37,138 nt of DNA from Victivallales bacterium (GTDB taxonomy: Bacteria > Verrucomicrobiota > Lentisphaeria > Victivallales > Victivallaceae): the NCBI GenBank assembly GCA_031261965.1, contig JAISIP010000068.1:1-37138 (forward strand). The letters run 5' to 3'. Positions 5,526 through 32,596 of the stretch are shown here, piece after piece (within the stretch, counting starts at the first letter, position 1; every line of letters starts with the position of its first letter). The notes below the pieces were generated by a model, which saw nothing but the letters and a program-made list of their open reading frames with translations, was not told the DNA's origin and did not search any database. A program made the position numbers and the translations under genes.

Positions 5526-6128
5526 TTACCGTTTTTTCCGTTGTTTGGAGTCACTATATATCTTTTCTATATTTGCATTATAAATGGAAGAGTCTACTTG
5601 AATGGAAATGCTTGGAAGTTTCAAGTTTAAAATTTTGCGGTCCGAGTCCTTGAAATCCTTATTGTTACTTGTCGTAAAATAACCACACGACACCATAATT
5701 TGAGCCATATATTCCCCTGGCGGAATTGGTTGTAAATTATCTTCATTGCCTCCCAAAGTATTTTTACGAATTTTATTAGGAACGGGAATAAACCAAACAG
5801 TATTGTCTTGAGTGGAGATTATGTGATATTTCAGTCTATTTGATTCACTTGCAGTTAACAATTCCTGCCTCGGAGAAATATTGATTCCTCTTTTATTTAA
5901 GATGGCAACAGTTATTTGATGTGCACAATTGTCGCTCACCATGAGTACAAGCCTGTTGTTTTTGGAAGAATTAACCAGTTCGATACGAAACCCGACTGTC
6001 TTCCCAGTGTCATTTTTTACCGCTTCAGCTTTTACCGCCACATCTTTATTTTCTCCCACAACTATTTCTTTGTCATTTTCGTTAGTTGCATCGGCGAAAC
6101 AACACATCATCGTTATGCTTAAAGACAT
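5526..6128 (-). CDS. Unknown secreted or lipid-exposed protein, A+T-rich
   Basis: 200 aa from the ATG at 6128, chosen because AAGG sits six bases upstream in the same context (AGGATAGTTATG) as the neighbouring sigma factor start. The N-terminus MSLSITMMCCFADA is a short hydrophobic segment ending in a plausible signal-peptidase site, but it lacks the usual basic n-region. The upstream codons (IEKIARIV) would supply one, so the original start may have been upstream and lost when repeat copy 3 inserted. A frame-open alternative start at 6200 would put repeat-encoded residues at the N-terminus. The body is rich in beta-prone sequence with a PPGEY turn. I do not recognise a family. Base composition is visibly more A+T-rich than the neighbours, and repeats flank it on both sides, suggesting acquisition. 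Confidence 0.6.
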   Translation of the reverse strand: MSLSITMMCCFADATNENDKEIVVGENKDVAVKAEAVKNDTGKTVGFRIELVNSSKNNRLVLMVSDNCAHQITVAILNKRGINISPRQELLTASESNRLKYHIISTQDNTVWFIPVPNKIRKNTLGGNEDNLQPIPPGEYMAQIMVSCGYFTTSNNKDFKDSDRKILNLKLPSISIQVDSSIYNANIEKIYSDSKQRKKR

Positions 6129-6239
6129 AACTATCCTTGCGATTTTTTCTATAAAGGGTATCTCTAAAAACTGGATTGCGCTGAAAATTAGCAGATTCAT
6201 GATTTGGAGGCGCGATTTTGCAAAATATCTCATACCCAT

Positions 6240-6269
6240 ACTATACAATCCCGATTTATAGTAATGCAA
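6240..6269 (-). promoter_or_regulatory. Candidate sigma70 promoter for the unknown gene at 5526-6128
   Basis: On the minus strand TTGCAT (6269-6264) is separated by 18 bases from TATAGT (6245-6240). A transcript from here would run through the left half of repeat copy 3 before reaching the ATG at 6128. The same hexamers with 17-base spacing precede the U32 gene. Confidence 0.4.
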
Positions 6270-6356
6270 GCCCGTTTTAAGAAAAATACAATAATTTTTT
6301 GACGGGTAAAAGCTAAGAAAAAATTTTGCGCTTTTCGCGGTTATTATACAAGAAAC

Positions 6357-6377
6357 GGGCGACCGCAATGGTCGCCC
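6357..6377 (-). terminator. Hairpin, possible terminator downstream of the sigma factor
   Basis: Perfect 8-bp stem GGGCGACC / GGTCGCCC with a 5-base loop, 48 bases past the sigma factor stop. On the minus strand the following bases are GTTTCTTG, a weak U-tract; on the plus strand ATTTTTT follows about seven bases later. It could act in either direction or be only a palindrome. Confidence 0.4.
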
Positions 6378-6424
6378 TATCCAATTTTTTGTAAATTTTT
6401 AGAGGTAGCCATTAAAAGGCAGGT

Positions 6425-7651
6425 TCAATCCGCAGCGAAGCCGGACTCGTCCACTAAAAGCTGTTTAAGCTTGGACAACGCCTGATTTTGAATCTGACGG
6501 ACACGTTCACGGGTTCGCCCGATCTCCTGACTGACCTCTTCGAGTGTAAGGGGGCGATTGCCGCGCAAACCGAAGCGCATTTCCAAAATACGCCGTTCGC
6601 GTTCTTCAAGCCGTTCCAAAAGATCCATCAAACGAAACACCGATTCGACATCGCCGAGAATTTGATCCGGGGTCATGGCGTGACGATCCGGGATAATATC
6701 CTGAAACTCCCCCTCTTCCCCTTGCTGGATCGGATCGTGCAAAGAGAACGTACGCAAATCCGCCAGGCGCAACCCGGCGACCGTGCGTTCGCTGAATTTG
6801 AGCAATTCGGCAATTTCGGCATCGGAGGGTTCGCGTCCGAGTTCTTCGGTCAACTGCATACGAACCGACTTGATTTTATTGATTTTACCGGCGGATTGCA
6901 CCGGGATACGGATAGTACGACTCTGATTTGCCAAAGCGCGGCGCATCGACTGCTTGATCCACCAGGCGGCATAGCTGGAGAATTTCGCCCCTTTGGCAGG
7001 GTCGAATTTTTCCACGGCACGCATCAAGCCGATATTTCCCTCACTGATAAGATCGAGCAAAGGCAATCCCAACCCCTTGAAGTCATGGGCGATTTTCACC
7101 ACGAGCCTGAGGTTCGCTTTAATCAGTGTAGAGCGGGCGTCTTCGTGTCGAATTTCGTCGTCGCTGTGAATAGCATCGGAGAGTTCGGCCTCTTCTTTTT
7201 TGTTCACCAGCGGAATCCGGGCAATTTCGCCCATGTACACTTTCATCGTGTCGTTTTTGGTTCCGGCGATGATTTTAGAATCAAGCGCGATCTTGCGGGC
7301 GGACTCCTTTTCCTGCTTGGTTCGCGGGCGGGCTGTGGTCGCCTCGACTGCGGTTTTGCGGGTCTTGGATTTCCCGGCATCGTCGGAGTCTTCGGCTTTG
7401 TCGATTACCGCGTTTTCCGGTTCGGATAAAGTCTTTTTGGGCAAAAATTTGGTCGATGTCGCGGTGACTTTTTTGATTTTCAGATTTCGCTTCGGTGCAG
7501 AATCCGCCGTCGCTTCTTCGCTGTCCTGGGGAGGAGCATTCAATGTCGCAACCCGACCGGATTTGCTCGGACTCTTTTTCTCTTCGACCTCAGTGGCATT
7601 CACTTCAGCCACACTCATTTCGGCACTTGCCACAACTTTCTTTGCAGACAT
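6425..7651 (-). CDS. rpoD: RNA polymerase sigma-70 factor, primary (RpoD-like) type
   Basis: 408 aa. Residues 1-115 are a low-complexity Ala/Ser/Lys/Glu-rich tail with no recognisable region 1.1. Region 1.2 starts near [18 protein letters not shown]. Region 2 contains [37 protein letters not shown] split across 2.1-2.2, and [17 protein letters not shown] is the -10 recognition helix. Region 3 is [11 protein letters not shown] onwards. Region 4 has ILEMRFGL and the helix-turn-helix [21 protein letters not shown] that reads the -35. This is group 1 or 2 sigma70; only the full genome would tell whether it is the housekeeping factor. ATG start with GAGG six bases upstream. Transcribed divergently from mfd. 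Confidence 0.88.
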
Positions 7652-7719
7652 AACTATCCTCGATTTTCACAAACACGCAAAACGATTTCGCCGATACGCT
7701 CTGCATCGCGAAACCTTGA

Positions 7720-7781
7720 TGCTACCTCTAAAAACTGGAAGCTCGGTTAAAAATTGCAGCTCCCTGTTTTTAGAGATACCC
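7720..7781 (-). repeat. Short family A repeat, copy 6 (internal deletion)
   Basis: GCTACCTCTAAAAACTGG at the left and CTGTTTTTAGAGATACCC at the right, with only about 25 bases between, which match the right-hand subterminal part of full copies. It is an internally deleted derivative in reverse orientation. Flanks TTGA and TTTA are a near match. Immediately right, TTAGAGTTACC (7783-7793) is another end-like relic. Confidence 0.7.
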
Positions 7782-7823
7782 TTTAGAGTTACCTTTGAAC
7801 CCGACTTCGATGTTTCTTCTTTA

Positions 7824-7988
7824 AGAGCTTATCAACTAATAAACACAAACGCTCTGACTTGCTCCGATTAGCCATTCACTTGTCGAAAAAATCGTAGATA
7901 TTTCTTCCAATATCCCCGATTTTTTTCAACTGCGCGACTGGTTCCCGGTGCTTCATCATAACATTTCCATTATTAGTTGATAAGCTCT
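7824..7988. repeat. Family B inverted-repeat unit, complete copy (165 bp)
   Basis: Perfect 19-bp terminal inverted repeats: AGAGCTTATCAACTAATAA (7824-7842) and its exact complement at 7970-7988. The centre contains a hairpin AAAAAATCG...CGATTTTTT with an inner GATATT/AATATC stem (about 7886-7925). The left 36 bases recur with four mismatches at 25697-25732. A 27-codon minus-strand frame (7959-7876, MMKHREPV...FFDK) lies inside. MITE-like or a decayed insertion-sequence remnant. Confidence 0.65.
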
Positions 7989-8035
7989 AAATCAGGTCAA
8001 AAAATGATTTTTTTTATAAAAACAGTACTTTAATA

Positions 8036-8064
8036 CTGTAAAAATAAACTTTCCGGCTTATAAT
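8036..8064 (+). promoter_or_regulatory. mfd: Candidate mfd promoter
   Basis: A perfect TATAAT (8059-8064) lies 118 bases before the mfd ATG, preceded at 17-base spacing by a poor -35 (CTGTAA, 8036-8041). Support is mostly the -10 box. Confidence 0.3.
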
Positions 8065-8181
8065 AAGAACAAGTACACAAAGAAACCGCCGGAAATTTTA
8101 TGGGTTCAGAAAACACTAAAATCAGCTTTTCTACAGGATTATCAGTATAAAACGTTCGCGTCGAAAATCAAGCGTCAGCAA

Positions 8182-11100
8182 ATGATAAATTGGCAAAAAA
8201 TTTTAAAAAAGTATCTCACTACTCCCGTCGCCGGCACGTTGAGCCGTTCCGGAGTGGAATTCGACTGCGCTGCATTTTTCCTTTTGCGTGCCGTTCTGAC
8301 CGGCGATAAACCGATTGTAGCCCTGTTCCCCGATCTTAATTCGTCCGAACGCGTCGCTGCGGAATGCGTGGCGATAACCACGCTAATTGACGCGCCGACG
8401 CGCATCCTTGAGCTACCCGAATGTGGACGGGGCAAATTGCTGTTTCCCGGCGGTGAATCGCAACGCGCCCGCGCTTTGAACGCCGCGTTGACCGAACACT
8501 TTGACCTCTATATCGGCAGTGTTCATTCCTTTACCGCCCCCGCGCCCAAGCCGACCGAAACGCTTGATTCGACTTTGACTTTGCGAGCCGGAATTCAGCT
8601 TTCCCCCGCCGAACTTTGCGAAAAACTCTTGCACCTCGATTACGATGACGAGTACGAATCAACGGTTTCCGGCGAATTCGCCCGGCGCGGCGGCATTGTT
8701 GACGTGTACAGCCCCGCCCACGATTTTCCGTGCCGGGTGGAATTCTTCGGCGATGAAATCGATTCGCTTCGCGCCTACGCCCCCGATACCCAGCGTTCGA
8801 CGCAGGAATTGACCGAATATCGGCTCATCGGTCGGGCGGGAATCACAGCGGGCGGAAACGGCAAAGCCGACTTTTTTGACTATATCGACGCAATTGATTA
8901 TCGTTTGGTTGTTGTCCACCCCGAATCAAGCCGGGAACGGCTGAAAAATTATTCGGGTGAAGTTGCCGTTGAGCGTCTGAATCAGATTGAACGCCGCTGC
9001 GCGGCTCGCGGCGATGCTTACGCCTTTTACGACACGGTAGAGTCGGCGTCGCACCCCGACGCGATCCCGGCTGAAATAGCCCCGCCCTTGGTTGCTCCCG
9101 ATGCAGAAACAAAAGGGGATTTTGCGCCGGAATCGCGACAAACTGCCTACGCGTTGAGCCGCCGATTGCTGGAACAGCATTTACAACGCGTACTTTTGGC
9201 GGGATTCGAGGTCGTACTGATTGCTCCACACCCCGAAAACATTCCGGCACTTCGCGATTATTGCCGTCGATTGAAGCTTGAAAACCCCAAACTCGGCTTT
9301 GACTCGGCGCGGCTCGGACACGGCTTCGCGTTGCCGAACGAAAAGCTTGTGGTCATTACCGAACGCGAATTTGTCGCGTGCATCCGTAAGAGCGACCAAA
9401 GTGAATTGGATTTGGAAGAGGAACCCCCGAAAACGTCAAAAGAAGTTGACGTTTCGCCCATATCAATTCCCGAGTTTTCGCTGGCAGATCTCGACTACGG
9501 CGATTACGCCGTGCATCTTGACCACGGTATCGGTATTTTCCGCGGATTTAAAACCCTCGAAACCCGGGGAGTTACCCGCGAAGTGCTGGTGCTGGAATAT
9601 CGCGACGGACAACAACTCTATGTGCCGCTTTTGCAAGCACACAAAGTCAATCGCTATTTAGGCAGCCCCGGCAAGGTGCATTTGCACGCGCTGGGCGGGT
9701 CAAAATGGAGCAAGGACAAAGACTCGGCAAGGCACGCTGTTCGCTCTTATGCCTCCGATATGCTCCGCTTGCAGGCGATGCGCCAGTCGGCTCCCGGAAT
9801 CGTTTTCCCGAAAGACAACGGAGAATGCCGGGCGTTCGTCAAGGCATTCCCTTTTTCCGACACGCCGGATCAACGCCGATCCACCGCTGAAATCTACTCC
9901 GACATGGAGTCGTCACGCCCGATGGATCGACTGCTTTGCGGTGACGTCGGGTACGGCAAAACCGAAATCGCCATGCGTGCGGTGTTCAAAGCCGTAAATG
10001 CCGGTTATCAGGCGGCGATTCTGGCACCTACCACGGTTTTGGCGCAACAACATTATAACAGTTTTCAGGAAAGATTTGCGCAATATCCGTTTACCATTGA
10101 GATGTTGAGCCGATTTCGTACCGCCGCCGAGCAAAGCGATATTTTACGACGCTTAAAATCCGGCGGAATTGACATTATCATTGGCACGCACCGGCTTTGC
10201 ACCCCGGAGCTGCGCTTTGCCAATCTCGGCATTGTGGTGATCGACGAAGAGCAACGCTTCGGGGTGAAACACAAAGATCGTCTGCGCCGATTCCGTGCCG
10301 AGGTTGATGTGCTTACCATGTCCGCCACGCCGATTCCCCGCACGCTCTATCTTGCAATGGCCGGAGCGCGGGATCTCTCCACGCTTATGACCGCGCCGAA
10401 ACAACGTTTGCCGGTCAAAACAGTCATCGCCCCGGAAGAGGAAGGTTTGATAGTTCAGGCGATCAAAGCCGAGCTTGCCCGTGGCGGTCAGGTGTATTTT
10501 TTGCATAATCGAGTTCGTTCCATTGCGGAAAAAGCCAATTGGTTGCAAGCGTTGATCCCGGAGGCACGTATCGCGGTGGCTCACGGGAGAATGCATGAAC
10601 ATGAGCTGGAAGAAGTCATGACTCGCTTTTTGCAGGGCGAGGTGGACTGCTTGGTTTGTAGCACAATCATCGAATCCGGGCTGGACGTACCCAATGCGAA
10701 CACGATTTTAATTGAGCGGGCCGACCGCTTCGGACTTGCCGAACTTTATCAATTGCGCGGGCGGGTCGGACGCTGGAAACATCAGGCTTACTCCTATATG
10801 TTGCTCCCCAAAAATCAGTTGGTCAGCTCCGATGCCAGAAAGCGTCTCGCGGCGATCCGGCGTTGCTCGAATTTGGGCGCGGGGTTTCAGCTGGCATTGC
10901 GCGATCTTGAAATTCGCGGCTCCGGCAATCTTCTGGGCAGCGAACAATCCGGGCATCTCGACACGATCGGCTTTGACCTTTACTGCCAGTTGCTCAAGCA
11001 CGAGATCGCCCTGCTTCGCGGCGAACGCCACGAACTGTTGCCGGAAGTCGAAATCGGAATCGATTTTGTGAGTTTCAGCTTGACCGCTTCAGCCGGTTCG

Positions 11101-19549: not shown

Positions 19550-21028
19550 TTAGTTGCGGATTCTTTTGGCTTTAGCCTTGCCGATGTAAAACGCCTTGAT
19601 GTTGTTTTTGACCACATGCTCTTTTTCGTGGAAGCAATCCATAATCGCCTCTTCAAACACCCGGTCAAAATCAGCCTTATCTTCTTCATCAAGAAAGAGA
19701 TCGCACATCATGACCGCCACCGCTCCAAGCATCATGGAGTTGGCGTATTTCAAATCGCCGAGCTGTTTGGCCAGATCCGAAGCCGGCAGCGTGTAAATGA
19801 CTCGCTCAAGCACCTCGTCCGGGCATTTGCCGTTCGACTCGTCGTAGAGCAAGATTCCGTTGCTTTTTAAGGTCGGCAAATACTTCTCAAGGGCGGGCTG
19901 ATTTAAAGCAAGCAGCAAATTGCACTCTTTGTCCACCACCGGAGACCCGATCGGGTCACGGCTTAGCACCACCGAACAATTCGCCGTCCCTCCCCGCATT
20001 TCCGGCCCGTAACTCGGCAACCACGAGACGTTGAAATTGCGCAACTTGCCCATGGTTGCGAGCATATAGCCCAAACTCAGCACCCCTTGACCGCCGGAAC
20101 CGCAGAGCTTGATTCGCCGCTCCGACTGAAAAATGCGTGACGGGTTGCGAAAAGATTCACTGACCCCGTCGGCAACCCGAACCGGGTAGAGCAGTTCGCG
20201 TACCGCCTCCGGCTGATAAATACCGACCGGGCGATTGATCGGGTCGCGGCTGTCGGCGATGTCTTTGTAAACCCCGAGCGGGAAATAACGGCTCATCTGG
20301 TTGTCGAGAAATTCGTTCATATCTTGCGCGTTCATTTTTAAATTGACCGGGCAACCCGAGAGCAATTCCACCAAAGAGAACCCTTTTCGCTCGATGCTGT
20401 TAGTCAACGCTTTGCGAATTGCAAGCCGCGCTTTGCGAATCTTTTGCACGGTTGAAAGCGCGCAACGTTCGACGTACACGGGGGCATCGAGCGCAGCGAC
20501 GGTTTCGGATACTTTTAACGGGTACCCCTCACTGCTGACACTTCGTCCCAACGGAGTGGTTTGAGTCTTTTGCCCCGGCAATGTGGTCGGCGCCATCTGA
20601 CCGCCGGTCATGCCGTAAATCGCATTGTTAACAAAAAACACCGCCAGATTTTCCCCTCGGTTCGCCGCCTGCAAAATGTGGTTGAAACCGATCGACGCCA
20701 AATCGCCGTCACCCTGGTACGAAATCACCAAGTTATCGGGATTCGCCCGCGCCAGCCCGGTGCCGACCGCCGGAGCGCGTCCGTGCGGGGCGGAAATACC
20801 GAAACAGTCGAAGTAGTAGTAGCTGAACACCGCGCAACCCACCGGAGCGATAATGATCGTTTTATCCTGAATCCCAAAATCGGCTATCGCCTCGGCGATG
20901 AGCTTGTGCAAAATACCGTGTCCGCAACCGGGGCAGTAGTGCATATTGCTTTTAATCGGGCCGGGGCGACGCTCAAAAACCGGGAAAAATCCGCCGGAGC
21001 GACCAAAAATTACTTTCTCTTCACTCAT
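19550..21028 (-). CDS. 2-oxoacid:ferredoxin oxidoreductase, fused beta (TPP) and gamma subunits
   Basis: 492 aa, a single chain of what are usually two subunits. Residues 1-240: thiamine-diphosphate beta subunit with HYCPGCGHG (31-38), the TPP motif YQGDGDLASIGFNH (104-117) and AIYGMTGGQMAPTT. Residues about 305-485: gamma subunit beginning RIKLCGSGGQGVLSLG, with PSYGPEMRGGTANC. The complex oxidatively decarboxylates a 2-oxoacid to acyl-CoA and reduces ferredoxin, an anaerobe trait. Alpha and ferredoxin subunits are encoded directly upstream (gap five bases to alpha). Substrate could be 2-oxoglutarate or branched-chain oxoacids; the alpha subunit looks VorB-like. Confidence 0.9.
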   Translation of the reverse strand: MSEEKVIFGRSGGFFPVFERRPGPIKSNMHYCPGCGHGILHKLIAEAIADFGIQDKTIIIAPVGCAVFSYYYFDCFGISAPHGRAPAVGTGLARANPDNLVISYQGDGDLASIGFNHILQAANRGENLAVFFVNNAIYGMTGGQMAPTTLPGQKTQTTPLGRSVSSEGYPLKVSETVAALDAPVYVERCALSTVQKIRKARLAIRKALTNSIERKGFSLVELLSGCPVNLKMNAQDMNEFLDNQMSRYFPLGVYKDIADSRDPINRPVGIYQPEAVRELLYPVRVADGVSESFRNPSRIFQSERRIKLCGSGGQGVLSLGYMLATMGKLRNFNVSWLPSYGPEMRGGTANCSVVLSRDPIGSPVVDKECNLLLALNQPALEKYLPTLKSNGILLYDESNGKCPDEVLERVIYTLPASDLAKQLGDLKYANSMMLGAVAVMMCDLFLDEEDKADFDRVFEEAIMDCFHEKEHVVKNNIKAFYIGKAKAKRIRN

Positions 21029-21033
21029 AAAAC

Positions 21034-22098
21034 TTATGCCTCCTTCGCACCGACAATCTCGGTGACACGCTTGACGATTTCATCGATAGTGGTGATATTC
21101 CCGCCCATACGGTTGATTAAATGCACCGGGCGGTCGCAGTTGATCGCCAATTTGACGTCATCGATCATCTGACCGTCGCTCATTTCCACAGCGATGAACT
21201 CCTTTGCCTGACCAAGTGCGCGAATTGCATCAACCGGGAACGGCCAAAGCGTGATCGGACGCAAGAGTCCGGCTTTTATGCCTTTGGCGCGAAGCTCGTC
21301 CACCGCCGAACGACAAAGTCGCCCGGAGATCCCGTATCCGACCAGAACAATGTCGGCATCTTGGGTTTTGTACTCTTCGCAACGCTGTTCGTTAGCGCGA
21401 ATTTCGGCGTATTTACTTTGCAGTTTTTTGTTTAACGCCTCAAGGTCGTCATGTTCAAGGTAAATCGAGCTGATTAAGTTCGTGCGGGGGCGACTTACAT
21501 CAAGCGCCCACGCCGGAACTTCGGCGCGTTTGCTCAACGGTTCCGGCAATGTGACCGTCTCCATGGTTTGTCCGATCACTCCGTCGGTCAGCAAATATAC
21601 GACAATGCGGTATTTTTCGGCAAGCTCAAACGCAAGAAGCGGAAAATCGCACATCTCCTGCGCCGATGCCGGCGACAGGACAATGCAGTGATAACTGCCG
21701 TGACCGCCGCCTTTGACAACTTGATTGTAGTCGGACTGCTCCGGACCGATGTTCCCAAGCCCCGGACCTGCCCGCATAATATCGACCACCAAAGCGGGCA
21801 ATTCTTCGCCCGAGAGATAGCTGATTCCCTCCTGCTTGAGGCTGATCCCCAGCCCCGAACTCGCGGTCATGGCTCGCCGACCGTTTGCGGCGGCACCCAT
21901 AACCATATTGATGGCGGCAATCTCACATTCCGCCTGAAGAAAGGTTCTCCCGAGTTTGGGAAAACAGCGTGCCGCGGTATGGGCGATTTCGCTGGCGGGG
22001 GTGATCGGGTAGCCAAAAAAACATTCGCACCCGGCTAACAACGCGCCGTAAATCACCGCTTCGTTGCCTTTAAGTAAAATTCGATTGGTATATTCCAT
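21034..22098 (-). CDS. vorB: 2-oxoacid:ferredoxin oxidoreductase alpha subunit, VorB-like
   Basis: 354 aa, the length of the VorB/KorA alpha subunits. LLKGNEAVIYGALLAGCECFFGYPITPASEI is the pyrimidine-binding N-terminus, LQAECEIAAINMVMGAAANG and TASSGLGISLKQEGI follow, and IMRAGPGLGNIGPEQSDYN is characteristic. The C-terminal transketolase-type domain is VLVGYGISGRLCRSAVDEL and PITLWPFP. The symbol follows its resemblance to 3-methyl-2-oxobutanoate oxidoreductase subunits; 2-oxoglutarate specificity is possible. Seven bases after the ferredoxin gene, five before the beta-gamma fusion. Confidence 0.85.
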   Translation of the reverse strand: MEYTNRILLKGNEAVIYGALLAGCECFFGYPITPASEIAHTAARCFPKLGRTFLQAECEIAAINMVMGAAANGRRAMTASSGLGISLKQEGISYLSGEELPALVVDIMRAGPGLGNIGPEQSDYNQVVKGGGHGSYHCIVLSPASAQEMCDFPLLAFELAEKYRIVVYLLTDGVIGQTMETVTLPEPLSKRAEVPAWALDVSRPRTNLISSIYLEHDDLEALNKKLQSKYAEIRANEQRCEEYKTQDADIVLVGYGISGRLCRSAVDELRAKGIKAGLLRPITLWPFPVDAIRALGQAKEFIAVEMSDGQMIDDVKLAINCDRPVHLINRMGGNITTIDEIVKRVTEIVGAKEA

Positions 22099-23354: not shown

Positions 23355-25601
23355 TCAGAACCAATCACCGTCGAAATTGAATGTCCCGGTCTCCCGGCTG
23401 TTCCAATGCGCGTTCTGCAAATCGTAAAAATCGTACAATCCCGGCAATCTCGGAATCGAATGCACCTTTTGCGGATAAAGTCGGGTCAAACCGTCACGCC
23501 GGTCAAAACGGACGACAAATCCGTTGCCGCGGTCATCGCGAAATTCTCCATCCATCGGAATTTTTGCGCGGGTAATCAGCAGAGCCGGACGACCGTAACG
23601 GTAGAGTTCAAGGACCAGCACTGATTTATCGCGCAGTGCTTCAATCGATTCTTTTTCCAACTCAATATGCGCGGTTACTCTGCTTACGCCCAAGCGGGAT
23701 AACTCCAGCGCTGTCATCGAATTCGCCACCGGCAATGGCGTTGAGGCGATTATCTCTATTTTTTGATGCGGCTTTAGCAGCGTTAATGCGTAAAGCGAAC
23801 CTATTCTGAAACGCTTGATTCCCGAAGCAACCGCGCTTTGAATCGCTCTTTTTACCGATTCAAGCTTTCCTTCCGGGCAAAATTCCGGGAGAATCACCTC
23901 CCCGGTGAGCTTATTAAAATCGAATATGGAACAGGCGCGAATCGCCTTGCGGTTGCCCGGCTCCGCGCCGTTAGGCTTCATCGCCACGGTCTCTTGCAGA
24001 TGCTCCGGCAAACTTCCGGCGGGTTTGAGCGACTGATACGCTTTGCGAAATCTTTCCAACCCGACGGCGGAATCGCGAAATACACTTTCAGGACTCAAAT
24101 TCTCTTTTACTTCATTCCAAAATTCGCGGCGCAAAGACTTCAGCTCACTACTCGGCAGGAAAAAGTTTCCCCCGATTTCGCATTTGAATTCCCCCAGCGC
24201 AAACACATCGGAATCCGCCGCCGAGAATTCCTTGTGCAACGTCTCCGCCGTGACCGGGCGGGAATCGGCACTTTGCAGCGCGACTTTGCGTTTCCAGTTT
24301 GGGAATATGCCGTTTTCGACTTTTACTTCAATTTGCGAAGAGGTGAGCTTCAGCGCAAGATTCAGCTTTTTGCGCGGAATCGGCAAGGCGGCAAGCTCTT
24401 TGGCGTAGTCGGAAAAGCTTTCGCCGATTTTAAACACCAATCCGCCCGCGGCAACGGGTTTGTCACAAAGTACAAACAGCTGTTGCCCAGGCAACGCTTT
24501 GCGTGTCGGTGCATTATCGATAAACATTTTTGTAACCGTCAGTGCCGAACCCTCGTCACCGGATTGAGGCTGAACCCGAAGCCGATCGCCGAGAAACAGC
24601 CGTTTTGAAGTGACAAACCCGAAGCCGTTGTCGCGCAAATCGTTTACATTGCCGCATAATTGCCCGGCGGCTCCGAGCGAATCGTGCGAAATTAAAGTGG
24701 ATGCGGACTCTGTGGTGTAAAATCCGAGCGACCATTTGCGACCGCATCCCTTGGACAGCATATTACGGGCCTCTCCGAGATGTTCGCGAAATTCCGCCGC
24801 CGGAGCATCGAGCAACATGCGGTATGCTCCGACCGTCTGCCTGACAAAATCCGGTTGCTTCAGCCGTCCTTCGATTTTCAGCGAGTCAATTCCCAGTTCG
24901 CGCAATTGCGGTAAAAGCTCAATCGTGCAAAGATCCTGTGGAGAAAAAAAGAACCCGTTGCCGTTTTTACTGAAGTAACGGCGGCGACACGGCTGTTTGC
25001 ATTTGCCGCGGTTGCCGCTGTAACCACCTAAATACGATGAAAAGAAGCACGCTCCCGACAGCGAGGCGCAGAGAGCTCCGTGAATAAACACCTCAAGTTC
25101 AAGCTTTGTCGATTTACGCACCAAAGCGATCTCTTCAAGCGTCATTTGCCGCTCCAGTACCACCCGGCTTATACCCAACTTCTCGGCGATTTCAAGTCCG
25201 GCAGAGTTATGAAAACCCATTTGAGTGGAGGCGTGCAACGCCAATTTCGGGAAATACTCCCGCGCCATACGGATGATGCCGAGATCTTGCACCAACAGCG
25301 CGTCCGGTTGCATTTCTTCGAGCAACGCGAGTGTTTCGGCGACTTCGGCAAGTTCGGATTCTTTGACCAGAGTATTTAGCGTGATATAGACCTTGCGTTT
25401 GAGCTTATGGGCATATTCGATGATTTGCGCCATATTTTCGGGAGTAAAGTTTTCGCCGCGCTCACGGGCGTTGAATTTCGACAATCCGGCGTAAATCGCA
25501 TCTGCCCCCGCTTCAAATGCGGCAAGTGCGCAACCGGGACTTCCTGCCGGGGAGAGTAGCTCGGGATTAGGTCGAACTCCGGAAACAATATGGTTATTCA
25601 T
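23355..25601 (-). CDS. Peptidase U32-family protein (RlhA/TrhP-like RNA hydroxylase type)
   Basis: 748 aa. The N-terminal U32 domain starts PELLSPAGSPGCALAAFEAGADAIYAG. The signature E170-x-F-x-x-G-A-L-C178 is followed by C185, C201 and C205, the four cysteines thought to hold an Fe-S cluster in U32 enzymes. A long C-terminal extension from about 310 contains a second U32-like half. Although named collagenase-like peptidases, characterised bacterial members hydroxylate rRNA C2501 (RlhA), tRNA wobble uridine (TrhP) or ubiquinone (UbiUV). Size and domain layout suit RlhA best. A good promoter sits just upstream (25634-25662). Confidence 0.85.
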   Translation of the reverse strand: MNNHIVSGVRPNPELLSPAGSPGCALAAFEAGADAIYAGLSKFNARERGENFTPENMAQIIEYAHKLKRKVYITLNTLVKESELAEVAETLALLEEMQPDALLVQDLGIIRMAREYFPKLALHASTQMGFHNSAGLEIAEKLGISRVVLERQMTLEEIALVRKSTKLELEVFIHGALCASLSGACFFSSYLGGYSGNRGKCKQPCRRRYFSKNGNGFFFSPQDLCTIELLPQLRELGIDSLKIEGRLKQPDFVRQTVGAYRMLLDAPAAEFREHLGEARNMLSKGCGRKWSLGFYTTESASTLISHDSLGAAGQLCGNVNDLRDNGFGFVTSKRLFLGDRLRVQPQSGDEGSALTVTKMFIDNAPTRKALPGQQLFVLCDKPVAAGGLVFKIGESFSDYAKELAALPIPRKKLNLALKLTSSQIEVKVENGIFPNWKRKVALQSADSRPVTAETLHKEFSAADSDVFALGEFKCEIGGNFFLPSSELKSLRREFWNEVKENLSPESVFRDSAVGLERFRKAYQSLKPAGSLPEHLQETVAMKPNGAEPGNRKAIRACSIFDFNKLTGEVILPEFCPEGKLESVKRAIQSAVASGIKRFRIGSLYALTLLKPHQKIEIIASTPLPVANSMTALELSRLGVSRVTAHIELEKESIEALRDKSVLVLELYRYGRPALLITRAKIPMDGEFRDDRGNGFVVRFDRRDGLTRLYPQKVHSIPRLPGLYDFYDLQNAHWNSRETGTFNFDGDWF

Positions 25602-30511: not shown

Positions 30512-32596
30512 ATGGAAAATCTCTATCTCGGGATCGATATCGGCTCGACTACGTTTAAAGCCGTCCTCTTGAATGAAAAAGGTCAAGTTCGCCAAGCACT
30601 GTATCGACGCACGCGACCGGTGGACACCGGGCGGGTTCGCTGCTCCGGCGTATGCGCAAAATGCGGAGCGTGTAACTTTGGTCAATTGCGCCAAACCGTC
30701 GATAAATTTTTGATGGATGCCGGAATTAAGGGGTTGGGCGAAATCACCTGCACCGCCGTCACCGGCAGCCAGATTGTGGAGGATACCCACGACTTTTTGC
30801 CGTACGATTTTCAGGTCAGCGAAGTCACCGCCCACGTTGCCGGTGCGCGTCATTATTACCCCGACTGCAAAGCGATTCTCGATGTCGGCGGGCAAGACAG
30901 CAAGGCGATGGTCTTCAACGATAAGATGAATATGTGGAACTACAAGATGAGCGGCATTTGCGCCGCCGGTACCGGTGCGTTTCTCGACAGCGTCGCGATT
31001 AAGCTCAATGTCCCGGTCGAAGAGATGGCCGACCGCGCCAACTACGGCAGCGATCTGGAGTTTTCCAGCGTCTGCGCGGTACTATCCGCCACGAGCATCA
31101 ACAAATTCAAAAACCGTTTCCCGATGGGTGATATTATCGGCGGAGCGTGCCGCGCTCAAGCCCGCACCATCATGTCCGGGGTGGGCGAACTCTTTTTGGA
31201 CTACAAAGGCGATATTGTCTTCCAAGGCGGCGTGGCATACAATCAGGCGGTCGCGCATTATCTCAAGGAGATCACCGGCAACAATATCGTTACGCCGGAG
31301 CTTCACGGGGTAATGGGTGCACTCGGTTCGGCTTGTCTGGCGCGTCAATTTTACCATCTTAAAGGGAAATTCAACCCCGAGATCGGGCTTCCGCCCGTGG
31401 AGCGTCATCTCGAATCGGTCAATTTGCGTGCCCGCGCCACGCGCAAAGATTTTCTCGGAAGGGGCGATGAGCCGCTGGTGTGGCGCAATTTGTTTTTCCC
31501 CACCGAAATCTTAAACGCGATCGGGGCGCGGGCACTGACGCTCGAAACCTATGCCGCGCTTTTTGCCCGCAGTCGGCACAAGGTCAAGCGGGCGTTTGAC
31601 CGGGCGGCGTGCAAGGGATTTTCCGGCGAAACGTGTTCTTTTTTGCGGGTGCTTGAGGGGTCGGACCTGCCCCGCCCGGCGTTTGGGGTTTCCACCTCGC
31701 AACCCTGCCAGCAGGGCGAACGTATTTTTCGCGATCTCGGACGCAATTACGGTTTGTCGGACCGTTTCTTTTCGCTGCAAACTCCGGCTACCGGGGCGGA
31801 CGACGCGCTGGCGGTGGAGCATTTGGCGGAGGAGTTGGAGCGTTCGGTCCGTCAGATGGAAAAGGCGTTGAATTTGACGCTCAAGCCCCAGCGACTGAAA
31901 GAAGCGTGCGAACACTCCAACAACGCAAGACACTATTCTTTGCTGGCAAATGAGTTGCGTTTTAACAGCCCGCCTCTTATCCGCGGGACGCAAGCAATTT
32001 ACTTTGCCTCGATTTTCAGCCAGCTTTGGGGTCGCCCCGAGTTGACCGAGATTCAACAAAAACTCTATGAAGAACTCAAAAATATTCGCGAAGAAATCGC
32101 CGACTCGGTCAAAATTGAAGATACTCATCGGTTGCTTTGGCTGCATTTGCCCCCGTTTTACGACACATCGTTGTTGGACTATATCGAAATAAAGCGCCGG
32201 GCACCGATTGTTTTTGAAGAGGTAAACTATATCGGCTGGAAGCCGCTCGATGTTTCCGACCCCTACCGCTCATTGGCAAAAAAGGTTCTCAGTACCGGGT
32301 TTATGGATCCGGCGCAAAGGGTAAAGACCATTCTCGAACAGGCTCCTGTTATTCACTACAACGGTTGCATCCTCTACAACCACGGTTTCGGGCGTTGTTC
32401 GATGGCGGACAGTTCATTTGTCAAGCATTTGCGCGAAGAGTTAAACCAGGCGGCGATTCCGCTGCTGGTTCTCGACGGTGATTGTGTTGACCCGACTATC
32501 GACCCGTGCAGCACCGAAACCAAGATTTCCGCATATATCGAAGCTTTGAACGAACGGAAATACGGCAATATCTTTGGCGCATTGAGGAAAAAATAA
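30512..32596 (+). CDS. Fused 2-hydroxyacyl-CoA dehydratase activator (BadF/HgdC) and HgdB-like protein
   Basis: 694 aa. Residues 1-275: ASKHA ATPase of the BadF/BadG/HgdC family, with LGIDIGSTTFKAV (phosphate loop), DVGGQDSK, ICAAGTGAFLD (Cys150) and FSSVCAVLSA (Cys188); the two cysteines correspond to those holding the [4Fe-4S] cluster in the HgdC dimer. An extra CxxxCxxCxxC motif (Cys44/48/51/54) lies after strand 2. Residues about 315-694: HgdB/BcrB-type dehydratase or double-cubane-cluster fold with HYNGCILYNHGFGRC, LDGDCVDPTIDPCS and STSQPCQQGERIF. The first part normally pumps electrons into the second at the cost of ATP. Substrate is unknown. A promoter and palindrome precede it; the cupin gene follows by one base. 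Confidence 0.85.
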   Translation: MENLYLGIDIGSTTFKAVLLNEKGQVRQALYRRTRPVDTGRVRCSGVCAKCGACNFGQLRQTVDKFLMDAGIKGLGEITCTAVTGSQIVEDTHDFLPYDFQVSEVTAHVAGARHYYPDCKAILDVGGQDSKAMVFNDKMNMWNYKMSGICAAGTGAFLDSVAIKLNVPVEEMADRANYGSDLEFSSVCAVLSATSINKFKNRFPMGDIIGGACRAQARTIMSGVGELFLDYKGDIVFQGGVAYNQAVAHYLKEITGNNIVTPELHGVMGALGSACLARQFYHLKGKFNPEIGLPPVERHLESVNLRARATRKDFLGRGDEPLVWRNLFFPTEILNAIGARALTLETYAALFARSRHKVKRAFDRAACKGFSGETCSFLRVLEGSDLPRPAFGVSTSQPCQQGERIFRDLGRNYGLSDRFFSLQTPATGADDALAVEHLAEELERSVRQMEKALNLTLKPQRLKEACEHSNNARHYSLLANELRFNSPPLIRGTQAIYFASIFSQLWGRPELTEIQQKLYEELKNIREEIADSVKIEDTHRLLWLHLPPFYDTSLLDYIEIKRRAPIVFEEVNYIGWKPLDVSDPYRSLAKKVLSTGFMDPAQRVKTILEQAPVIHYNGCILYNHGFGRCSMADSSFVKHLREELNQAAIPLLVLDGDCVDPTIDPCSTETKISAYIEALNERKYGNIFGALRKK

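Follow-up and report, generated by a model that had tools for sequence, protein, structure and literature searches.

The activase-dehydratase fusion and its distribution

The window, i.e. the whole stretch of 37,138 nucleotides of Victivallales DNA that was analysed, comes from a gut bacterium and encodes an HgdC-type activase domain and an HGD-D (dehydratase) domain within one polypeptide, with a small cupin gene whose ATG follows the TAA of the fusion after a single base (Table 1). An earlier note on this DNA had proposed such a combination of activator and dehydratase in 694 residues, together with a Cys44/48/51/54 motif and the activator cysteines Cys150 and Cys188; both domains lie over their Pfam cut-offs (PF01869, BcrAD_BadFG, 106.9 bits against a gathering score of 31.5; PF06050, HGD-D, 142.3 bits against 28.4), and translation places all six cysteines where the note had them. 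The predicted structure of the chain has a mean pLDDT of 86 and a pTM of 0.87, with pLDDT values below 50 at residues 40-44 and 151-153 alone.

Table 1. Positions in the window of the fusion, its domains and candidate ligands, and of the neighbouring genes discussed
Feature	Position	Strand	Basis
Single-chain activase-dehydratase fusion, 694 aa	30512..32596	+	ORF without internal stop; Pfam domains; ~80 orthologues
BcrAD_BadFG / HgdC-type ASKHA activase domain (aa 6-271)	30527..31324	+	Pfam E 1.7e-30
Family-specific insert, Cys44-x3-Cys48-x2-Cys51-x2-Cys54 (aa 36-54)	30617..30673	+	four Cys invariant, 78/78 rows
Cys150, putative inter-subunit [4Fe-4S] ligand of activase	30959..30961	+	invariant, 81/81; aligns with CAAGTG Cys of HgdC/HadI
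Cys188, putative second cluster ligand of activase	31073..31075	+	invariant, 81/81; aligns with SSTC Cys of HgdC/HadI
Cys213, activase half	31148..31150	+	invariant, 81/81; without counterpart in HgdC/HadI
HGD-D domain, HadB/BzdO-like (aa 327-679)	31490..32548	+	Pfam E 3.5e-41
Glu345, counterpart of BzdO Glu65 (acid beside cluster-bound water)	31544..31546	+	invariant; alignment
Cys375, equivalent of HadB Cys84 / BzdO Cys95, putative cluster ligand	31634..31636	+	invariant, 81/81
Cys399, equivalent of HadB Cys117 / BzdO Cys128, putative cluster ligand	31706..31708	+	invariant, 81/81
Cys629, equivalent of HadB Cys346 / BzdO Cys380, putative cluster ligand	32396..32398	+	invariant, 78/78
Cys658 and Cys666, family-specific GDCxDxxxDPC loop	32483..32509	+	invariant, 78/78
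Small cupin, 116 aa	32598..32948	+	Cupin_2 E 2e-16
Two adjoining genes, 2-oxoacid:ferredoxin oxidoreductase	19550-22098	-	POR domains
U32-family protein	23355-25601	-	Peptidase_U32 + DUF3656

A scan of GTDB genomes for orthologues gave 80 loci, the majority with the whole chain, at 52-90% identity. The hosts include Lentisphaerota, two Kiritimatiellae and metagenome-assembled genomes (MAGs) named as Chlamydiota, Verrucomicrobia or Bacteroidaceae, the spread beyond Lentisphaerota being judged from the MAG names. The isolate Victivallis vadensis DSM 14823 (locus L017) carries the fusion at 83% identity. As the single reading frame recurs in about 80 other genomes, including that of this isolate, a MAG artefact is ruled out and the fusion is genuine. 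It occurs in 80 of the 137 genomes of the window's order, in a few cases as fragments at contig ends, and its presence is scattered, many genomes of the same family being without it. In a clade from other lineages (loci L050, L063, L064, L068, L071, L074 and L075) an insert of 75-80 residues, at a point corresponding to window residue 293, forms a longer linker between the halves. No account of this particular fusion was found in the literature searched, a set to which the main papers on the double-cubane protein DCCP did not belong.

The activase half and its four-cysteine insert

The predicted model of the N-terminal half matches the activators HgdC (1hux; VIA-align Z 30.5, rmsd 2.1, 255 residues aligned) and HadI (4ehu; Z 30.5). 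Each monomer has two cysteines, Cys150 and Cys188, at the positions appropriate to a putative [4Fe-4S] cluster shared between two activases. In the fusion, LSATS takes the place of the FAESE motif that is canonical for activases, and the NCBIfam acyl-CoA dehydratase activase model (TIGR00241) gives the window protein 117.6 bits, below its curated cut-off of 125.4. A further cysteine of this half, Cys213, is likewise conserved.

An element specific to the family is the insert bearing Cys44, 48, 51 and 54, which was not found in the six other activases aligned, i.e. those of Klebsiella (YjiL), Monoglobus, Sulfurovum and Rhizobium, and two from Azoarcus. Among 12 family members less than 70% identical pairwise, 179 of the 694 positions are invariant, all four insert cysteines included; since these are surrounded by variable residues, their conservation, on which the note's proposal of a functional motif depended, is not merely a by-product of overall similarity or chance. 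One locus, L048, has a 22-residue insert in its activase domain after the position of window residue 72, just behind the four-cysteine region; its close relatives, being similar in length, probably have this insert too.

Cys44-54 may bind an additional cluster for electron entry. That the motif instead binds a structural zinc ion seems somewhat unlikely: four closely spaced cysteines are able to bind zinc, and the model, which gives no cofactor, is of low confidence at the motif, but the other cysteine sets of the fusion, in the activase and the dehydratase, match Fe-S ligand sites, and DUF2229-type and Monoglobus activases carry a different four-cysteine motif behind the activase domain, although neither observation is proof of iron.

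The dehydratase half: putative cluster ligands and active site

Comparison of the predicted model of the C-terminal half with solved structures gives HadB (3o3m_A; VIA-align Z 36.6, rmsd 2.6, 375 residues aligned) and BzdO (8s02_C; Z 36.6) as equal best matches, with DCCP (7yzm; Z 31.2) behind them. By sequence profile the closest solved relative is HadB (E 2.8e-17). In a tree of dehydratase-type sequences, the C-terminal half groups with HadB and a Rhizobium subunit (support 93/92), apart from DCCP, BzdN-type proteins and a fusion from Azoarcus; the tree has long branches and indicates the side of the family to which the half belongs, not its sister group.

BzdO binds one [4Fe-4S]-OH2 cluster through three cysteines (95, 128 and 380), and its Glu65 lies at the water on that cluster, whereas BzdN carries an [8Fe-9S] double cubane on six (36, 73, 100, 263, 293 and 327), the cluster type also found in DCCP (PMC11971306). 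In alignment with HadB, DCCP, MbdN and other relatives, all three BzdO ligands have equivalents in the fusion (Cys375, Cys399 and Cys629, the last falling one or two columns out of register in certain alignments), as does the glutamate (Glu345). As aligned, the C-terminal half is thus of the HadB/BzdO type in its three cysteine ligands and active-site glutamate, and is not a double-cubane domain. The suggestion of the earlier note that the C-terminal cysteines include cluster ligands therefore stands, being borne out by the alignment to HadB, but its double-cubane model does not, since these cysteines fit a single HadB/BzdO cluster and the three distal-cubane ligands are missing.

It is accordingly very improbable that the fusion is a single-chain [8Fe-9S] reductase of the DCCP type, acting on small molecules such as acetylene, azide or hydrazine. 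Points in favour of that reading are the match of the HGD-D fold to DCCP (6eno/7yzm, Z ~31), a hit to the NCBIfam double_cubane model, the homodimeric arrangement of DCCP with its 2:2 stoichiometry, and the two extra invariant cysteines, Cys658 and Cys666. However, at the sites of the three distal-cubane cysteines of DCCP and BzdN, each of the 11 aligned family members has either another residue or a deletion (from DCCP to the fusion, FCVYVP becomes VWRNLFFP, EETCIG becomes FEEVNYIGW and NCACFTP becomes GFMDP), and it is on this absence that the double-cubane assignment was rejected. Furthermore, the hit (NF040772) scores 40.1 bits, far under the equivalog cut-off of 350, and the tree places the half with HadB, not DCCP. 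The fusion also falls well short of the equivalog models on the other side of the family, with 39.8 bits for HadB (NF052455; curated cut-off 750) and 24.4 bits for BzdO (cut-off 448.6).

The GDCxDxxxDPC loop bearing Cys658 and Cys666 has no counterpart to either cysteine in HadB, DCCP, BzdN-type proteins or the other relatives aligned. In the secondary structure of the model, the loop follows strand 651-656, which is the next strand after that preceding Cys629, and the pair may thus lie near the predicted Cys375/Cys399/Cys629 cluster. With these two, every covering row of the orthologue alignment retains twelve cysteines (44, 48, 51, 54, 150, 188, 213, 375, 399, 629, 658 and 666). At two positions the fusion differs from its solved relatives: alignment places Leu327 at HadB Ser37, which we take to be a catalytic residue, and Gly402 at BzdO His131. 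These substitutions imply an altered active site.

Other subunits and CoA-transferases in the genome

The fusion is the sole HGD-D match, and the sole BcrAD_BadFG match above the Pfam cut-off, in all nine genomes of the genus Victivallis, six of which are near complete. Most genomes of the order that carry the fusion, and 9 of 10 genomes sampled more widely, likewise have no other HGD-D protein. In the nine Victivallis genomes the HGD-D search revealed neither a second HadC/HgdB-like subunit nor a BzdN-type subunit, and neither the class III (PF02515) nor the class I (PF01144) CoA-transferase family gave a match, although searches for both did so in control genomes. The note had reported neither a second subunit nor a CoA-transferase nearby, a picture that now extends to the genomes of the genus.

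Fermentation dehydratases of the HadABC type require a second subunit and a CoA-transferase. With a sole HGD-D protein, a sole activase and no CoA-transferase of class I or III, the fusion appears to be self-contained, and probably is not a dehydratase of the Stickland type, a candidate that was disfavoured because neither a second subunit nor a member of the two transferase families was found. More broadly, a fermentative 2-hydroxyacyl-CoA dehydratase in which activator and dehydratase have merged is consistent with the position of HadB as nearest solved relative by profile, with retention of the cluster ligands and the Glu55/Glu65 equivalent, and with the presence of one acyl-CoA dehydrogenase in each Victivallis genome; a CoA ligase is a possible route to its substrate. 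We regard this reading as quite improbable, given the nine genomes without a partner subunit or transferase, the leucine in place of Ser37, the low HadB score and the lack of pathway genes adjoining the fusion. A 2-hydroxyacyl-CoA made by a CoA-transferase is, likewise, probably not the substrate.

The cupin and the gene neighbourhood

The cupin, which the earlier note had proposed as a possible partner, adjoins the fusion in 44 of the 80 fusion-bearing genomes of the order, and its metal-ligand positions (H56, H58, E61, E63 and H97) are invariant among 35 such neighbours. In one case (L038, positions 5959-8448, probably the same genome as G267) it is joined in frame to the C terminus of the fusion with no stop between, and in one group both genes are present on different contigs. 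The association is positive (Fisher p 6e-4, relatedness ignored). However, within the order the cupin occurs without the fusion in 36 genomes, and the fusion without the cupin in 9, and an obligate partnership was rejected on these counts; because the cupin stands alone in 36 genomes, it is a facultative partner at most, so that the proposed link holds for proximity and a single case of fusion but not for dependence. The cupin is likely a helper or sensor and not a required part. On a plasmid of Cetobacterium somerae, a cupin relative of 33% identity (L136:5001-5354) lies beside genes for formyl-CoA transferase and oxalyl-CoA decarboxylase, i.e. for oxalate breakdown.

Across the 80 loci, gene context gave no hint of a substrate. 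The cupin (in Victivallales) and lysA/tsaB (in Victivallaceae) are the only recurrent neighbours, the rest being lineage-specific. The window itself also encodes a 2-oxoacid:ferredoxin oxidoreductase and a U32-family protein. At L043 and L046, the gene directly upstream of the fusion, in the same orientation, encodes a Rex-like (NADH-sensing) repressor, as identified by eye, which hints at redox control. A defence-system reading was dropped, PADLOC having returned no match.

A context tied to no pathway, with a single-copy gene of scattered presence, would suit a protein that uses ATP to activate another metalloprotein reductively or to aid its maturation, by analogy with the activation of methyl-CoM reductase, and the activase half matches methanogenesis marker 15 in all 34 members. 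Such a role is nevertheless improbable, in that no conserved client gene adjoins the fusion, the fusion is missing from many genomes of the same family, and retention of the active-site glutamate, together with an open site on the cluster, points to chemistry on small molecules.

Proposed mechanism and significance

The reading that we favour, and consider probable, is that the fusion is a self-contained, ATP-driven, homodimeric and ferredoxin-fed low-potential electron-transfer enzyme, with clusters at Cys44-54, Cys150/Cys188 and Cys375/Cys399/Cys629. Sequence supplies the fusion, its conservation, the ligand set and the lack of another detectable subunit in the genus, and prediction the fold; from these we infer the clusters, the homodimer, the electron route and the ferredoxin donor. 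Two copies of the chain would form a homodimer, with one [4Fe-4S] cluster bound jointly by Cys150 and Cys188 of both activase halves. Reduced ferredoxin, which may be made by the 2-oxoacid:ferredoxin oxidoreductase encoded in the same window, would probably donate electrons via a second cluster on Cys44/48/51/54, from which they would pass to the shared cluster and on to that at Cys375/Cys399/Cys629. ATP hydrolysis in the activase halves would drive single electrons onto this last, site-differentiated [4Fe-4S] cluster, whose open iron, beside Glu345, may reduce or radicalise a small substrate.

Two considerations count against the homodimer: in solved relatives a HadB/BzdO-type subunit pairs with a different partner (HadC or BzdN), and we know of dehydratase-fold homodimers for DCCP only. 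It is possible that there is a partner subunit too divergent for Pfam. The altered active site, the LSATS motif and the low-confidence stretches of the model, around residues 40-44 and 151-153, also weigh against the favoured reading. More tentatively, the fusion may represent a new subfamily of ATP-driven reductases, radical or low-potential, of anaerobic Lentisphaerota and their relatives. Its members would be HadB/BzdO-type homodimers that incorporate an activase and an electron-entry cluster and act on a non-CoA substrate, and the GDCxDxxxDPC cysteines unique to the family may modify or enlarge their catalytic cluster.

Activases and dehydratases of the HgdC/HGD-D kind carry out reactions that are among the most strongly reducing in biology, and a one-chain version would offer a compact system for studying ATP-gated electron transfer without complex assembly. 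The fusion also raises the question of what such reductases do outside amino-acid fermentation, the native roles of DCCP and YjiM/YjiL being likewise unsettled; because the cultured type strain of V. vadensis carries it, this question is testable.

Comparison with known systems

The fusion shares with the (R)-2-hydroxyisocaproyl-CoA dehydratase and its activator from Clostridioides difficile (HadI + HadBC; PDB 4eht, 3o3m) the activase fold and its two cluster cysteines and, with HadB, the dehydratase fold, three cluster cysteines and active-site glutamate. By contrast, HadI/HadBC comprises three chains, where the fusion is one and lacks a HadC-type subunit, has the additional Cys44-54 and Cys658/Cys666 sites and has leucine for Ser37. 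Similarly, the class I benzoyl-CoA reductases BzdNOPQ/MbdONPQ (PDB 8s02, 9gai) have, like the fusion, an ATP-driven activase, the [4Fe-4S]-OH2 ligand set and the Glu65 equivalent; the fusion differs from BzdNOPQ in having no BzdN-type double-cubane subunit, in the change of His131 to Gly402, and in carrying everything in one chain. DCCP:DCCP-R (PDB 6eno, 7yyl; YjiM/YjiL in E. coli) resembles the fusion in pairing an activase with a single type of dehydratase-fold subunit, but its parts are separate proteins, the fusion lacks the distal-cubane cysteines, and its C-terminal half falls on the HadB side of the tree.

The joining of activase and dehydratase is not new in itself, as there is a precedent on plasmid pAZKH of Azoarcus sp. 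KH32C (L103:5908-7965; WP_156822349.1), a compact fusion of 685 residues in which one activase domain likewise precedes one HGD-D domain. Unlike the Victivallis fusion, the Azoarcus protein lacks Cys44-54, has a BzdN/DCCP-like C-terminal half with extra cysteines, and has its gene flanked by those for a separate activase and a second dehydratase subunit, i.e. it is not self-contained. The C-terminal halves of the two fusions belong to different sides of the family, which makes independent origins most likely. Relative to this precedent, what appears new in the Victivallis protein, as read from sequence, is the HadB/BzdO-type C-terminal half, the Cys44-54 insert and the lack of any other detectable subunit.

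DUF2229-type large chains (1282-1479 residues; Paraclostridium, Collinsella, Haliovirga) also combine activase and dehydratase-like parts, but have two activase domains together with DUF2229-type parts and are twice the length of the fusion. Two of the three chains read have an extra four-cysteine motif, which follows their second activase domain, whereas that of the fusion is inside its activase. The DUF2229-type activases at L104:4992-5984, L111:2996-7435 and L114:3005-7354 have a four-cysteine motif (CX2CX3C, then a distant cysteine) behind the activase domain, and a four-cysteine motif also lies at the C-terminal end of the Monoglobus activase. From these examples it follows that accessory cysteine sites recur in the family.
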